A stretch of DNA of 64,000 nt from an uncultured Elusimicrobiales bacterium. GTDB taxonomy: Bacteria; Elusimicrobiota; Elusimicrobia; Elusimicrobiales; Elusimicrobiaceae. The notes under the pieces were generated by a model, which was not told where the DNA came from, did no database searches, and saw only the letters and a program-made list of their open reading frames with translations. Location: assembly GCA_944327085.1 (NCBI GenBank), contig CALVGG010000006.1:1-64000 (forward strand), in the 5' to 3' direction. Both the position numbers and the translations under genes were made by a program. Shown here in pieces: positions 24,563 through 54,544 of this stretch; position 1 is the stretch's first letter; every line of letters starts with the position of its first letter.

Positions 24563-24799
24563 ACAATTTTTCCTCATTTTATGTTGATTTTACGGGGGAA
24601 ACACCCTCCCCGTACCTTTAGGGTAACAATTATTATGCAGTTGCGCTATCCGCCAAAAGGCCCTATTTTGATATAGGACTTTGGGCCTATATCCACACTC
24701 CCTTTTTACTTTGCCGGATTTCCCTATACACAAAGCCTTTGCAGAGAATAAAAAATGCTGGCAGTTAATAAAACTGTCAGCATTTTTGTCAGTATCTGT
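24563..24799. other. Gene-free host flank left of attL
   Basis: With the following 160 bases this makes almost 400 bp without a gene. It holds the promoter region of the secreted protein, two ATAGG/CCTAT inverted motifs at about 24,660-24,695, and the old tRNA-Asn terminator listed separately. I see no ORF with a ribosome-binding site. Confidence 0.6.
24750..24787. terminator. Displaced terminator of tRNA-Asn
   Basis: A run of A, ATGCTGgCAGTT, loop, AACTGtCAGCAT and a T run. It lies just left of attL, where the tRNA gene would end on the minus strand in an unlysogenised chromosome, so prophage insertion has moved it about 30 kb from the tRNA. Confidence 0.75.
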
Positions 24800-24823
24800 T
24801 CTAAAAATGGCTCCCCGAGTAGG
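24800..24823. repeat. attL core (24 bp)
   Basis: Begins TCTAAAAATGG and ends GAGTAGG, identical to 54462-54485. It is the leftover 3' end of the host tRNA-Asn; the sequence diverges immediately to the right (AGATAAAG against GCTCGAAC). Confidence 0.92.
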
Positions 24824-24861
24824 AGATAAAGAAAAAACTATTTCCTGTATAGTAAAGCCTT

Positions 24862-24898
24862 AAAAAGAGGGCTTTTTCGCTATACAAAAGCCCTTTTT
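24862..24898. terminator. Terminator between attL and the integrase gene
   Basis: AGGGCTTTT (24868-24876) pairs with AAAAGCCCT (24886-24894) and a T run follows. It can end leftward int transcription or insulate the prophage from host transcripts. Confidence 0.75.
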
Positions 24899-24943: not shown

Positions 24944-24964
24944 TTTACTACATTTTTTACTACA
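24944..24964. repeat. Paired TTTACTACA motifs, left end
   Basis: TTTACTACA at 24944-24952 and 24956-24964, same orientation, 12 bp apart, overlapping the int stop codon. The same pair with the same spacing recurs next to attR. They may be arm-type integrase sites. Confidence 0.6.
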
Positions 24965-26057
24965 ATTCCGGCAGTTTTTCCACCGCGCTGGCCAGAGTAA
25001 CCGGGGATAAATGGGCGTAAATTTCCGTGGTTTTTATACTGCTGTGGCCCAGCAGTTTGGATACGGTATATAGGTCCACCCCAGCCTGTACCAAATGGCT
25101 GGCAAATGTGTGGCGGAGCTTGTGCAAACTGCCCTTTAAACCGGTGCTTTTTATAAATTTTAGGTACTTGGTAACAATGCCATCAAGGGTCAGCGGGTCC
25201 CCATAATAGTCATACAATACGCGGTTACACTTATCAGAATGCGGCAAAACCTGCAAATAAGACAGCAAATCGGCCGATAGCGGGATGTCTCGGCACTCGT
25301 TGGTCTTGGGTGTCCAGCCGGGTTTAGGCTGTACGGTAAGGGTCTTTTTAGTGAAATCTATGTCCCCCCACTCCAAAAATACCATTTCCCCCCTACGCAG
25401 GCCCGCCCGTGCCCCCAGCAATGTGGCGGTTTTATAGGGGCAGTATCCACCGTGTTCTTCGGCCTTTTCGTCCGCGCACTTTAGCACTTGGGTTAATTCC
25501 TGCGGGGTAAAGAAATCCACGCGTCCTTTGGGAGTTTTAAACTTTTTAATGCGCGACAGCTTCATTTCCGGCAGCAGTTCCCACTCCGCCCCTTTGCGAA
25601 GCGCGCACTTTACCGCGCGCACCATACGGTTTATCCCCTCGTTTGACATAAGGCCAATGGGGCGCTTATCCTTTTTGGGGTTATATGTGGCGGCAAGTTT
25701 ATCTGAGGTATTTTTAAGCCAGGTTTGGAAGTTTTCCACAAGGGCGAGGTTTATTTCTTCCAGCGTTTTTGGAGAGGCAAACTCTTCAAAATAATTAAGG
25801 GCGCGGCGGTCGTGCCCCAGGGTAATGGGGCTTTTGTTGGCGCGGGACCAGTCCAAATACCGCTGTTTAAATGCCTCCCAGGTGCTGGTGCCGTATTTGG
25901 AGCGGGATTTGCTTTCCGCCTTGATGTCTGCCAGCATGCGCTGGGCCGCCGCCTTGTTTTCACACAAGGCGCACTGTTTGCGCTTGCCGTTAACCATAAC
26001 GGAACCCCAATATACCGGGGATCCGGCGCGCTTATAGACAGAAGGTAGTTTAGGCAT
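24960..26057 (-). CDS. int: Phage integrase, tyrosine recombinase
   Basis: 365 residues. An N-terminal arm-binding region ([20 protein letters not shown]), a SAM-like core-binding domain (about 55-160), then the catalytic domain. Active-site residues are visible: Arg221 (AGLRRGEM), His312 and Arg315 ([12 protein letters not shown]), His338 (LLGHSS) and Tyr347 (TEIYAHL). It recombines attP with the 3' end of tRNA-Asn. It lies 137 bp from attL, the usual placement, and reads toward it. The stop codon overlaps the paired 9-bp motifs. Confidence 0.95.
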
Positions 26058-26907: not shown

Positions 26908-27753
26908 TTATTTCTCCTCAGGAACTGGGGAGGTAGGTGGAACTCCTTGCTGATCGGTTGCTTGAACAGGAGTAGGTTGTTGAGTTTCGCTTCCTGTGCA
27001 AGAGTGTTCTTTTTCTTTCAACTGTTTTTTGTAAAAGCGGCGAATTTTTGCCTGGGTTTTAGAAGCATCATCCCCTTCTAAAATTTCCCGTTTAAGAACT
27101 TCTTGACGGATAATTTTTTCTATTTCTTCATTATCTACTTTTAATCCTTCTGCAAATTTGCGTAATTCCCGCCGAATAACATTAATTACCGGTTCCGACA
27201 GAATAAATCCGCCAATAACAAAACGGTTTAAACATTGCATCTTTTCGTAGTAATCTTCGCGCGAATCTTTGGAAAGGCCTTCCTTACATAAAAGGAACAG
27301 TTTTTCCTGGTCTTCTTCTTTGCGGGGGTTTAATTCCAAAATATTAAATTCGCACACTAAATCGTGGCTGATAGGTTGTTCAAAGCGAATTTTGTGGACT
27401 TGCCAATCAATGCCGTTGGTAAGGATGATCCATGGAATGCCAGAGTTAGCGCCATAGTCTGCTGCTTGTTTTAAATGGTTTTCTTTTAGTTCCGTCCCTA
27501 CCGATTTACATTCAATCAAATACTGAAATTTACCGTCAATTTTAATTGCTAAATCGCAAAAAGTACCCCTAATTGCAAGTTCACTGGTAATATCCACATA
27601 TTTATCATAACCAAATAAATCAGCCAACATATCCGTGATAATAGAAACGGTATCGCTCTCATTTTTATCAGCATCCTTGGCTTTTTGCAATACATCCTGA
27701 AAAATACGCATCTTTTTATTTAAACGTTCTGTAATTTTAGCAGGCAAAGACAT
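26908..27753 (-). CDS. HsdR_N-type PD-(D/E)xK nuclease-domain protein
   Basis: 281 residues. The core at about 40-110 matches the N-terminal nuclease domain of type I restriction subunits: VSIITDMLADLFGYDKY, FCDLAIKIDGKFQYLIECKSVG (Asp, then Glu-x-Lys), then AADYGANSGIPWIILTNGIDWQVH. No helicase, HsdM or HsdS is present. The C-terminal third is charged and ends in a low-complexity Gln/Pro/Thr tail. It is co-operonic with the repressor (12-nt gap), hence likely expressed in lysogens. A defensive or exclusion role is inference. Confidence 0.75.
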   Translation of the reverse strand: MSLPAKITERLNKKMRIFQDVLQKAKDADKNESDTVSIITDMLADLFGYDKYVDITSELAIRGTFCDLAIKIDGKFQYLIECKSVGTELKENHLKQAADYGANSGIPWIILTNGIDWQVHKIRFEQPISHDLVCEFNILELNPRKEEDQEKLFLLCKEGLSKDSREDYYEKMQCLNRFVIGGFILSEPVINVIRRELRKFAEGLKVDNEEIEKIIRQEVLKREILEGDDASKTQAKIRRFYKKQLKEKEHSCTGSETQQPTPVQATDQQGVPPTSPVPEEK

Positions 27754-27765
27754 TTCACTTCTCCT

Positions 27766-28428
27766 TTATTTTTCCATTAAGCCAAGCCAGTTTTCTTTGT
27801 CTTGGCGGCTCCAAGAGCCTATAATCAGCCCGATAATGGTTAATTCTTTGGGCGTAAACGGCTTGTATTTCGGGTTGGTGGAGCAAAGTTGAATTGTGCC
27901 GTCCTTTAACTTCTTAATCACCTTCATGCACACGCCGTTTTCCGTTCTTACTACCATGGCGCGGCCGTGCATGGGTTCTTCCGTCTTTCTTATTACGCAA
28001 TAGTCGCCCAGGTGGAGTTTGGGCTCCAAGCTGTCACCATTGCATTTAACTACAAAATCGGCGCCCGGGAATACCCAGCGCGGGATGTCCCAAAAGGTTT
28101 CCACATCGGCGTCGGAAAAGTCCGGTAGGCCGGCGGGAACATCGGCAAGGATAGGCAGGGAAATGGTGTTTTTATCCGTCAAAGGGGTTACACGCAGAGA
28201 GCGGGAAAATTCTTTATCTTCAATGCCAAAAGCGGCTTTGACTTCGCGTTCAGAAGTTTTAAATAGTTTTGAAATCTTTTCTATCTTATCAGCTGGAGGA
28301 TTTGCACGGCCTGCAACCCATGCAGACACTGTGCTATCGTCTACTTGCAATTCTCTTGCTAATCTTATTTTTGCGCCTCTTAAAACGCCATTATTCCAGT
28401 TCTGTAATAGTTTTTCTAATTCAGTCAT
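27766..28428 (-). CDS. LexA/CI-like prophage repressor (HTH + S24 peptidase)
   Basis: 220 residues. N-terminal helix-turn-helix (LARELQVDDSTVSAWVAGRANPP, about 20-45), then an S24 self-cleavage domain: Ala-Gly cleavage site in PILADVPAGLP, Ser in CNGDSLEPKL, Lys in GVCMKVIKK. It holds the lysogenic state and would be inactivated through RecA during DNA damage. The start at 28428 follows GAGGAAATT; the 30 codons upstream run through the promoter and are excluded. It heads the leftward operon. Confidence 0.92.
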   Translation of the reverse strand: MTELEKLLQNWNNGVLRGAKIRLARELQVDDSTVSAWVAGRANPPADKIEKISKLFKTSEREVKAAFGIEDKEFSRSLRVTPLTDKNTISLPILADVPAGLPDFSDADVETFWDIPRWVFPGADFVVKCNGDSLEPKLHLGDYCVIRKTEEPMHGRAMVVRTENGVCMKVIKKLKDGTIQLCSTNPKYKPFTPKELTIIGLIIGSWSRQDKENWLGLMEK

Positions 28429-28471
28429 TTTATAATTTCCTCGTCGTAAAATAGGGAAACGCAAAATCCCC

Positions 28472-28501
28472 TTGACATATCTTAAAAATCTTATTAAGAT
28501 A
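28472..28501 (+). promoter_or_regulatory. Rightward early promoter with an embedded operator
   Basis: TTGACA (28472-28477), a 17-bp spacer and TAAGAT (28495-28500). A perfect inverted repeat TATCTTAA-N8-TTAAGATA (28478-28485 with 28494-28501) fills the spacer and -10, ideal for repressor blockage; a further half-site (TTTAAGAC) follows. It lies 44 bp from the repressor start. Confidence 0.85.
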
Positions 28502-28542
28502 TTTAAGACAAGGCGCAAATCCTTGTAAAAAAGAGGTTCAGC

Positions 28543-28656
28543 ATGGCAGATAAAGGCAAGCCAAATTACACAACTTACGTGGACGAGTTAACTGGTTTTT
28601 TAATTGTAAAAGCTAACCGCCCGGTAATTGTTAAGCCTTTATCTTCCCGAGAATAG
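28543..28656 (+). CDS. Small early protein, 37 residues
   Basis: Reads MADKGKPNYTTYVDELTGFL and ends KPLSSRE. AAGAGG lies 6 nt before the ATG, and it is the first ORF after the rightward early promoter, the place cro occupies in lambda. It is too short for a helix-turn-helix and I see none. Its last 26 bp overlap the 3' end of the convergent gene. Confidence 0.6.
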   Translation: MADKGKPNYTTYVDELTGFLIVKANRPVIVKPLSSRE

Positions 28657-28855
28657 GTTCAATTTTCAAAGGTTTGTTGGCGGTAATTGTAAAATTCCCG
28701 TCATTTTGAAAAGCAACAACGATAATAAGCCCGTTCTCATATTCAAGTGTTTGGCTGGTAAGTCTTCTGTCTTCCGCTTCATGGTAGTTCATATAACTGC
28801 GCACTAAACGTGCTGGGGCAGAAAACTTAAAAGTTTTACTTGTTTTTCCAAACAT
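28631..28855 (-). CDS. Small protein on the opposite strand of the early region
   Basis: 74 residues. Basic N terminus (MFGKTSKTFKFSAPARLVRS), then beta-like hydrophobic stretches (GLIIVVAFQNDGNFTITANK). GAGG lies 5 nt before the ATG. Transcribed against the early genes, with a possible TATATT box 14 nt upstream. Function unknown; it might be antagonistic or expressed in the lysogen. Confidence 0.55.
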   Translation of the reverse strand: MFGKTSKTFKFSAPARLVRSYMNYHEAEDRRLTSQTLEYENGLIIVVAFQNDGNFTITANKPLKIEPILGKIKA

Positions 28856-28876
28856 AAAAACCTCTTAAAAATATAC

Positions 28877-29060
28877 CGCGTTGAAAACTGCGAAGAATGC
28901 AACGCGACAAACCGCCACAAAGGGCGGCACAAACAAAGAGAGTACGACACCACGCTAAAACAATTTTTGCGGGCAACCGCAAAACAGACAGTCTTTGTTT
29001 GTGAAGCCGATAGCAGGGCCAGTAGCCCAACCTTTCGCAGAGGTCGCTATCGGTTTTTAT
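28877..29060 (+). ncRNA. Putative structured RNA of the prophage early region
   Basis: Four consecutive stems can be read on the plus strand. (1) CGCGTTG/CAACGCG (28877-28883, 28900-28906). (2) CCGCC/GGCGG (28912-28927). (3) A perfect 12-bp stem (28928-28939, 28992-29003) enclosing TTTTGCGG-GCAA-CCGCAAAA with a GNRA tetraloop (28965-28984). (4) CCGATAGC/GCTATCGG (29007-29014, 29046-29053) enclosing GGGC/GCCC and ACCT/AGGT. TTTTTATTTT follows, as in a terminator. No ORF with a ribosome-binding site crosses it. It could be a stand-alone small RNA or a cis-acting leader. No Rfam family recognised. Confidence 0.6.
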
Positions 29061-29096
29061 TTTAACAAATTTAAGTTAGTTAAGGGGAACCAAAAA

Positions 29097-29384
29097 ATGA
29101 CTAGAGAGAAACGGGCCAGCATGGCCCTTGAAAAACAACTGGGTGAAAAAAGTTATTACACCCTGTATGGCATGTGTGCCCAAATACCCGGCCGCACGGC
29201 CGGAAGCCGCCTTTCCCCCAACCAGCTGCTTAAGTACGTAAAAGAGGGCTGCCCGTGTTTTGAGCACGCGGGGCAGGTTCTTTTTGAAAAAGACTTAACC
29301 GTATTTTACAACTGGCTGCGGCAGCGCAAACCCTTGCGCCAAATAAAAGCGCAGGAGCGCCTGCGCCGTATTTATGGAAGGTAA
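29097..29384 (+). CDS. Phage protein of unknown function
   Basis: 95 residues. Starts MTREKRASMALEKQLG after AAGGGGAAC. Basic, mostly helical, with a possible helix-turn-helix or terminase-like helical bundle (SPNQLLKYVKEGCPCFEHAG) and a C-terminal Arg-rich helix. It is the first gene after the structured RNA. It could be a DNA-binding protein of the excisionase type, but this is only a guess from the pattern of a short ORF with a CPCFEHAGQVLFE turn. Confidence 0.65.
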   Translation: MTREKRASMALEKQLGEKSYYTLYGMCAQIPGRTAGSRLSPNQLLKYVKEGCPCFEHAGQVLFEKDLTVFYNWLRQRKPLRQIKAQERLRRIYGR

Positions 29385-29388
29385 CCCT

Positions 29389-29460
29389 ATGAAATACATT
29401 TTAGGCGCCTTTGGCATAGCTTACTGGCTGGGGCATTTGGCCTTTTACATTTGGGGATAA
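29389..29460 (+). CDS. Very small membrane peptide, 23 residues
   Basis: MKYILGAFGIAYWLGHLAFY and three more residues: one hydrophobic helix with no tail. GGAAGG lies 7 nt before the ATG, and it starts 4 nt after the upstream stop. Small membrane peptides are common in phage early regions. It is real if the ribosome-binding site is used. Confidence 0.45.
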   Translation: MKYILGAFGIAYWLGHLAFYIWG

Positions 29461-29721
29461 TTTACCGCGCGCCGCCGCGTAATACCGGGCCCTAGCCGTT
29501 AGGTTAAACGGAGCCGAAACGGCGGCAAAAAACCGTTTTGTTCTTTACTTCCTTGTATGGCAAAAGCGTTTGACGGCGTGGACGTACTGGCACACCCGGC
29601 AGAGTGAACGCAACTAGCCCGCCCCGGATTGAAACACAAACGGGGCCTACAATAAAACTGCTTAATCTGTTGATAGTGTGGGGCGGCCTAATAACCGCCC
29701 CCTAATTAGAGAGGTGTAAAA
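29461..29721 (+). other. Gene-free structured stretch before bet
   Basis: It holds several hairpins: CCGTT/AACGG (about 29493-29508), GCCCCG/CGGGGC (29621-29626, 29641-29646) and GGGGCGG/CCGCCCC (29680-29686, 29695-29701). No T run follows any of them. I find no ORF with a ribosome-binding site. It is probably the 5' leader of the bet operon or a second small RNA. Confidence 0.5.
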
Positions 29722-30480
29722 ATGACAAATGAAATAGTAAAGGCGCAAAATACTCCAAGCGAAGTATTAAGCGATCAAAAACTAAATGATTTTTTGGACA
29801 TATCGGGCGTGGGCAGAAACCTGCCGGCCGATAAGCGCATGCAATTTGTGGAAATTGCCAAAGCCTATGGTTTAAACCCGTTTAAAAGGGAAATTTACTG
29901 CGTTGGCTATGGCGGGCAGACTTCCATTATTACCGGCTATGAGGTGTACATTAAACGGGCCGAACGCACCGGCAAGCTGGATGGCTGGAACGTGCAAATA
30001 GAAGGTACCGGCAACGATATGAAGGCTACCATTACCATTTACCGCAATGACTGGAAACAAACCTTTAAGCACGAAGTGTACTTTGAGGAAGCCGCCAACC
30101 GCACCAAAGACGGGGAGCTTAATTCCGTTTGGAAAAAAATGCCCCGCTTTATGCTTAAAAAAGTGGCTATAGCGCAGGGCTTCCGCCTGTGCTTTTCGGA
30201 CGAGCTGGGCGGTATGCCTTATACCAATGACGAACTGGGCGCCGAAGACAAGAAAGAAGAAATAAAAGCTACCCCCGCCAAACCCACCGATACCGCGGTG
30301 CAGGCCGAAGCGGTGGAAATACTGGAACTGCCGCAAAATGTTTTAAGGGTGTTACAGTCTGCCCAAACCCGGGCCCAGTTAAAGGATATTTGCCGCGACG
30401 TGCTGAAATCTTTAGGAGATCCGTACCGCGAAACCTTAAACGATTATTACCGCAAACACGCCGCCGCGCTGGGGGCCTGA
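29722..30480 (+). CDS. bet: Phage recombination protein Bet (RecT/Red-beta family)
   Basis: 252 residues. Single-strand annealing protein used in phage recombination and replication. Core signatures are AYGLNPFKREIYCVGYGG, TGYEVYIKRAERTGKLDGW, KKMPRFMLKKVAIAQGFRLCF and DELGGMPYTNDEL. The C-terminal 70 residues are a variable helical tail. GAGAGGTG before the ATG. A nuclease and a DUF1351 protein follow, the usual company of Bet. Confidence 0.9.
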   Translation: MTNEIVKAQNTPSEVLSDQKLNDFLDISGVGRNLPADKRMQFVEIAKAYGLNPFKREIYCVGYGGQTSIITGYEVYIKRAERTGKLDGWNVQIEGTGNDMKATITIYRNDWKQTFKHEVYFEEAANRTKDGELNSVWKKMPRFMLKKVAIAQGFRLCFSDELGGMPYTNDELGAEDKKEEIKATPAKPTDTAVQAEAVEILELPQNVLRVLQSAQTRAQLKDICRDVLKSLGDPYRETLNDYYRKHAAALGA

Positions 30481-54461: not shown

Positions 54462-54485
54462 TCTAAAAATGGCTCCCCGAGTAGG
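54462..54485. repeat. attR core (24 bp), 3' end of tRNA-Asn
   Basis: Identical to 24800-24823. It supplies the CCA end, acceptor strand and part of the T stem of tRNA-Asn, so the gene stays intact after integration. Confidence 0.92.
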
Positions 54486-54544
54486 GCTCGAACCTACAAC
54501 CTACCGGTTAACAGCCGGTCGCTCCACCATTGAGCTATCGGGGA
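54470..54544 (-). tRNA. tRNA-Asn (anticodon GTT)
   Basis: Minus strand. Acceptor TCCCCGA pairs with TCGGGGA and CCA is encoded. Anticodon loop CTGTTAA, T loop GGTTCGAGCC. It is the integration target of the prophage. A host promoter should lie to its right; the MFS gene ends at 54618. Confidence 0.96.

Follow-up and report, generated by a model that had tools for sequence, protein, structure and literature searches.

A conserved, structured RNA in the early leader of prophages of one bacterial genus, and its possible role as a conditional terminator

What lies between the early promoter and the first early gene of the prophage in this DNA, and does it act as an RNA? The window, by which we mean the whole stretch of 64,000 nucleotides that was analysed, belongs to a contig of a 1.67-Mb genome and carries a prophage bounded by 24-bp direct repeats at 24800-24823 and 54462-54485 (the att sites). 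The right repeat overlaps the end of a tRNA gene on the minus strand (54473-54544), so that the prophage is tRNA-integrated. Its genes include an integrase (24963-26057, minus strand), a repressor of the S24/HTH (LexA) type (27769-28428, minus strand) and RecT (29722-30477), together with a DUF1351 gene, a DNA methylase and a terminase. The protein encoded at 26911-27753 on the minus strand, between the integrase and the repressor, has a weak match to HSDR_N_2 (the N-terminal part of a type I restriction R subunit) and is possibly cargo. Divergent to the repressor is an early, pR-like promoter on the plus strand (28472-28500; -35 TTGACA, 17-bp spacer, -10 TAAGAT) with +1 near 28507, which is the sole sigma70-like site upstream of the element discussed here within the scanned range of 28400-29800; TTGACA was present at the equivalent place in those relatives whose promoter region was covered. 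The early transcript would begin with a 5′ hairpin (28509-28525, plus strand; CAAGG-CGCAAAT-CCTTG; CAAGGCGCAAATCCTTG). Inserted between the promoter and the RNA is a 37-aa open-reading frame (28543-28656, plus strand), overlapped by an antisense 74-aa frame (28634-28855, minus strand), while the first gene beyond the terminator of the RNA encodes 95 amino acids with no assigned function (29097-29384, plus strand).

The structured element spans 28877-29063 of the plus strand (~187 nt) and consists of three hairpin domains followed by a three-way terminator. Hairpin P1 (28877-28883/28900-28906, 7 bp) presents the loop CUGCGAA (28888-28894), and hairpin P2 (28912-28916/28923-28927, 5 bp, CCGCC/GGCGG) is missing from short variants. 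The 12-bp stem P3 (28928-28939/28992-29003) encloses a long, asymmetric internal loop (28941-28964) with a conserved AGUA...CA and an inner hairpin, P3a (28965-28972/28977-28984, 8 bp, GCAA loop). In the intrinsic terminator, the 8-bp stem P4 (29007-29014/29046-29053) closes a three-way junction with hairpins P4a (29016-29028) and P4b (29030-29044), the latter with the loop UUCGCAG (29034-29040), and is followed by a U-tract (29054-29063, TTTTTATTTT) that is kept in all copies and ends 33 nt before the ATG of the 95-aa gene.

All five helices that had been claimed for this stretch in the sequence-only reading are present, at the coordinates listed above, and the fold is unusually strong, with a minimum free energy for 28870-29070 of -72.9 kcal/mol compared to -43.3 ± 4.3 kcal/mol in 200 dinucleotide shuffles (z = -6.84). 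The trimmed element gave z = -7.09, the minus strand was weaker (z = -4.2), and seven other distinct copies gave values between -5.4 and -7.9. Among 135 sampled 190-nt segments across the 64 kb, only one reached a comparable z, at 24701 beside attL. That segment (24701-24890, z = -7.1) holds stacked strong hairpins and T-runs at the left attachment site, which are probably terminators. No open-reading frame explains 28877-29063, again in agreement with the earlier reading, and an open frame 5′ of the 95-aa gene was rejected as a gene since the T-run of the G051 copy is one T shorter than that of the window, which shifts the frame. A search of the window against Rfam 15 returned a tRNA as its sole match and nothing for the element at gathering score; a lax search of the element gave a best E of 0.12, on the opposite strand and under the gathering score, and the copies in relatives produced no Rfam match at E up to 0.5.

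Within the genus and phylum, relatives were sought with DNA, protein and pattern queries and, over 341 phylum genomes, with a covariance search, producing nine copies in 8 of 66 species genomes, all of one genus. These are the copy in the window, two in G058 (the second denoted G058b), and those in G074, G051, G064, G075, G071 and G018; the elements of the window and G058 differ by one letter. The copies had covariance-search E-values of 3e-17 or better, with the next phylum match at 0.003, and the covariance model found no convincing copy elsewhere in the 341 genomes. Weak covariance matches in G329, G318, G093 and G023 (E 0.003-0.3) were set aside, as the latter three resemble chance and that of G329 looks like a terminator lacking the three-way junction, though with the same tail. 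The leader of G040, with a strong fold and a terminator, was excluded as a member on account of the same missing junction. GenBank records of phages contained no relatives, and IMG/VR, queried with the 95-aa protein and three DNA patterns, returned nothing or chance matches in unrelated sequence. In RecT prophages of other types from the same genus (G034, G039, G053 and G042), the RNA was absent from the parts examined.

By sequence type, the copies group as window, G074 and G051; as G075, G071, G058b and G018, in which P2 is absent; and as G064. In every copy the RNA sits between the early promoter and the first gene. The downstream gene is the 95-aa gene in most copies, another gene in G064 and a helix-turn-helix-like one in G018, and the interval upstream of the element is empty in G064, G075 and G018, but in the window and G058 it holds the 37/74-aa cargo. 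Since what stands before and after the element varies, its constant feature is a location between early promoter and early genes, whichever gene follows. The terminated product would measure ~195-230 nt in copies without cargo. The sequence of the 5′ hairpin, AAGGCGCAAATCCTTG, is letter-identical in the prophages of G058 (both), G071, G074, G075 and G018, one base short in G064 and missing in G051. An insert of ~370 nt, 94-96% conserved and without a convincing open-reading frame, separates the 5′ hairpin from the element in G071, G074 and G058b (L042:1530-1850), and in G071 the contig breaks within it. The element is also represented in a CRISPR array of 63 repeats on a contig of G019 (L028, from ~11918 to the locus end), with 36-nt repeats and mostly 29-30-nt spacers: two different spacers are directed against it, one matching the window type at 28949-28979 and the other the G018/G075 type. 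Eight letters (CGAAGAAT) are shared by the P1 loop and the G019 repeat, but they are lost in G075-type copies, and mimicry of the CRISPR repeat was discarded in favor of chance.

The check that had been proposed in the sequence-only reading, whether base changes in the stems compensate one another, was made on eight distinct copies aligned by hand on structure with N for gaps, an alignment that was left unchanged by an alignment tool. Standard pairs fill 96.3% of the cells over 66 pairs, and two-sided changes occur in 22 of the 66 pairs versus 12.1 ± 1.9 in shuffles, a count to be read with the caveats that hand alignment favors the structure used and that the copies are related and represent few lineages. 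Double-change cells numbered 51, versus 17.3 ± 3.0 in shuffles; none of 500 shuffles reached the observed values, and in slid controls only 36-46% of cells were paired. Covariation is found mostly in P3 (10 of 13 aligned pairs), then in the P4 extension (6 covarying pairs), P4b (3 covarying pairs), P3a and P4a, with the P4 core and U-tract nearly invariant. Given the bias of a hand alignment and the relatedness of the copies, these counts matter less than the finding that P3 is built from three unrelated sequences (CACAAACAAAGA, CGTGTGAAATGGA and GTGGTTGGA), each with its own complement. The two-sided changes in one-third of the pairs, with 96% of cells paired, indicate that selection acts on an RNA, as the earlier reading had supposed. 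On the evidence of sequence comparison, the element represents a real and new RNA family, conserved among prophages of a single genus.

The loops of P1 and P4b are complementary over seven letters (CUGCGAA and UUCGCAG) and form the two halves of a proposed kissing contact, a feature which, like the homologues and the end of the element 33 nt before the first early gene, goes beyond the earlier reading. In G075-like copies the loops read CUGCAAA/UUUGCAG, a compensatory change from G-C to A-U, and G064 keeps five of the loop-loop pairs (CUGCA/UGCAG). Across the alignment, 98.2% of cells hold these pairs, and five of the seven pairs are invariant among copies. The leader of G027, which is unalignable and was missed by the covariance model, again contains a three-way terminator, in which the P4b loop reads AGCCAG and can pair with an upstream CUGGCU; this case is weaker because the minimum-energy fold puts CUGGCU in no clean hairpin loop. 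Shuffles of the P1 loop gave p values of 1e-4 to 9e-3 per sequence type, the G027 leader included, and a search for complementarity anywhere upstream in shuffled sequence gave p values of 0.005-0.05. The calculated strength of the loop-loop pairing is -5.1 to -8.8 kcal/mol, and exposing the P4b loop costs ~1.8 kcal/mol. A long-range contact between the P1 and P4b loops is probable from these data; judged by sequence, the loops could meet within one molecule, as we infer, or between two. Besides the kissing loops, the most conserved unpaired stretch is the AGUA...CA of the P3 internal loop, which would be the likeliest binding site.

An intrinsic terminator stands between the promoter and the first gene with no other promoter by a search with the sigma70 consensus, and none was found between the terminator and the ATG of the 95-aa gene by that consensus, from which promoters of this phylum may differ. 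With the terminator directly before the first gene and no later sigma70-like promoter, the early genes can be expressed from the early promoter only by read-through. The reading that we prefer, at a probability of about one-half, is that of a conditional terminator (attenuator) that acts in cis, through a tertiary fold, in the leader of the early (pR-type) operon; both regulation of the terminator and the direction in which it works are inferred. In this mechanism, once repression of the early promoter lapses, RNA polymerase would make P1, P2 and P3 and then P4a and P4b, whereupon the P4b loop would pair with the P1 loop to form an RNA ring just behind the polymerase. P4 would meanwhile complete the terminator hairpin over the U-tract, and most transcripts would end there. 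Termination would keep leaky transcription from reaching the genes for replication and recombination, and read-through would occur only when a phage or host factor, or another conformation of the RNA, acts on the RNA or the polymerase. The terminated product may also act in trans.

In four copies, the complete leader gave a pair probability of ~1 for P4, and in the leaders tested no conserved helix was found that would compete with it in the manner of the mutually exclusive antiterminator of a classical attenuator. Any switch must then be tertiary or external, which favors a state that depends on the tertiary fold, a protein or a modified polymerase. The same two results speak against a simple two-state fold of the riboswitch type. 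Translation attenuation was likewise rejected, as a 37-aa frame precedes the element in the window and G058 alone, with no such frame in the other copies. More tentatively than the conditional terminator itself, we consider that the element may stand for a new class of phage RNA, whose ring-like fold, closed by the kissing contact, would decide between termination and early expression and may sense a factor via the P3 internal loop.

A stand-alone small RNA, one of the models of the sequence-only reading, is a serious rival, although a doubtful one as the whole explanation: the terminated product would be functional in trans, as IsrK of the Salmonella prophage Gifsy-1 or P4 CI RNA is, and read-through would be secondary. 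This is consistent with a discrete, highly structured RNA that has its own terminator and with a transcript from ~+1 to the terminator of just 195-228 nt in G064, G075 and G018. Transcripts of IsrK either stop at its terminator or continue into the operon, such that one prophage leader can serve as both a small RNA and an mRNA leader (PMC4825925), and by this analogy a small RNA could coexist with a conditional terminator. The IsrK-type arrangement, in which a prophage RNA with its own terminator lies directly before genes transcribed by read-through from the same promoter, fits the element, whose isoforms are predicted from the sequence alone. IsrK, compared here by description, differs in activating translation of its own read-through isoform by trans pairing, of which none was found, the pairing of the element with 29061-29120 reaching only -20.7 kcal/mol with no long helix. 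The best duplexes of the element with 120-nt pieces of the early transcript were also at background level, and the two conserved loops complement each other, which fits an internal contact. Because no promoter of its own was found for the element in the window (sigma70 consensus), a conditional terminator in the early leader is preferred to a separate small RNA gene. P4 CI RNA, a short product of processing, imposes immunity by pairing with the leader; as predicted for the element, it belongs to a phage early-operon leader with an early end of transcription. The prophage here differs in having a repressor protein of the S24/LexA type. In a test for c4-type pairing, the best duplexes with the early transcript were at background, the P1 and P4b loops being complementary but inside one RNA. 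The pRNA of Phi29 shares the three-way junction and two complementary loops with the element, but its loops pair between molecules in the packaging motor, whereas the element, compared by description, is located in the early region, and the phage has a terminase gene.

The conditional terminator must also be weighed against three further readings. The put RNAs of HK022 act through the beta' zinc-binding domain to suppress pausing and termination further downstream, and a put-like antiterminator, also a model of the sequence-only reading, in which the nascent RNA binds RNA polymerase and gives resistance to terminators including its own P4, we regard as unlikely. Both put and the element are structured RNAs of a nascent leader transcript, encoded behind an early promoter in a temperate phage, and put RNAs need no phage protein, with putR located ~270 nt from the start site (PMC9378689). 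They are, however, RNAs of ~70 nt with two stem-loops (PMC9378689), to which the element, compared by description, does not correspond, being ~2.7 times that size, with P3, a three-way terminator that is a conserved part of the fold and long-range loop-loop pairing. This greater length and the terminator are the reasons for not filing it under put, and by analogy it may still act on polymerase in a similar manner. Control of termination by RNA at the start of a mobile-element operon is also known from canT of Tn916 and conAn of pLS20; conAn differs in requiring a protein partner, and canT, a longer RNA of the put kind, was defined as a 452-bp fragment separate from the terminator that it overcomes (PMC11658703). 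A plain insulating terminator, with upstream hairpins that merely protect the RNA and neither regulation nor function in trans, seems quite unlikely: the terminator is strong and conserved, insulators are frequent in phage operons and constant partial insulation is possible, but such a device has no need for covariation in P3, loop-loop pairing or a conserved AGUA...CA internal loop. Hardly credible is the suggestion of the sequence-only reading that the divergent 74-residue gene has its operator in the first stem. That gene has a good Shine-Dalgarno sequence and does start ~22 nt away, on the minus strand, but no copy except those of the window and G058 is accompanied by it, and the others all retain P1.

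The conditional terminator, if it does gate early transcription, would place an RNA checkpoint on top of a lysogeny switch of the LexA type and provide a case in which the tuning of intrinsic termination by tertiary structure can be tested, in a compact, conserved leader that bears its own terminator and a long-range contact backed by covariation. No phage control RNA from hosts like this was found in the literature, which was partially covered, and the covariance model of the element can be used to find prophages of this genus. A second conserved, structured, non-coding stretch was observed on the plus strand at 29538-29646, between the early short open-reading frames and RecT. Its single-sequence fold is ordinary (29455-29722, z = -0.6), and no 16S gene was found in this assembly for a comparison with the boxA of host rRNA. 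This stretch may serve as a site of antitermination. Across six further prophage copies, TTGTTCTTTAC, which resembles boxA, lies at a constant distance from the ATTGAAACACAAAC loop, and over 19 proposed pairs 98.7% of cells hold, with two-sided changes in seven of the pairs.
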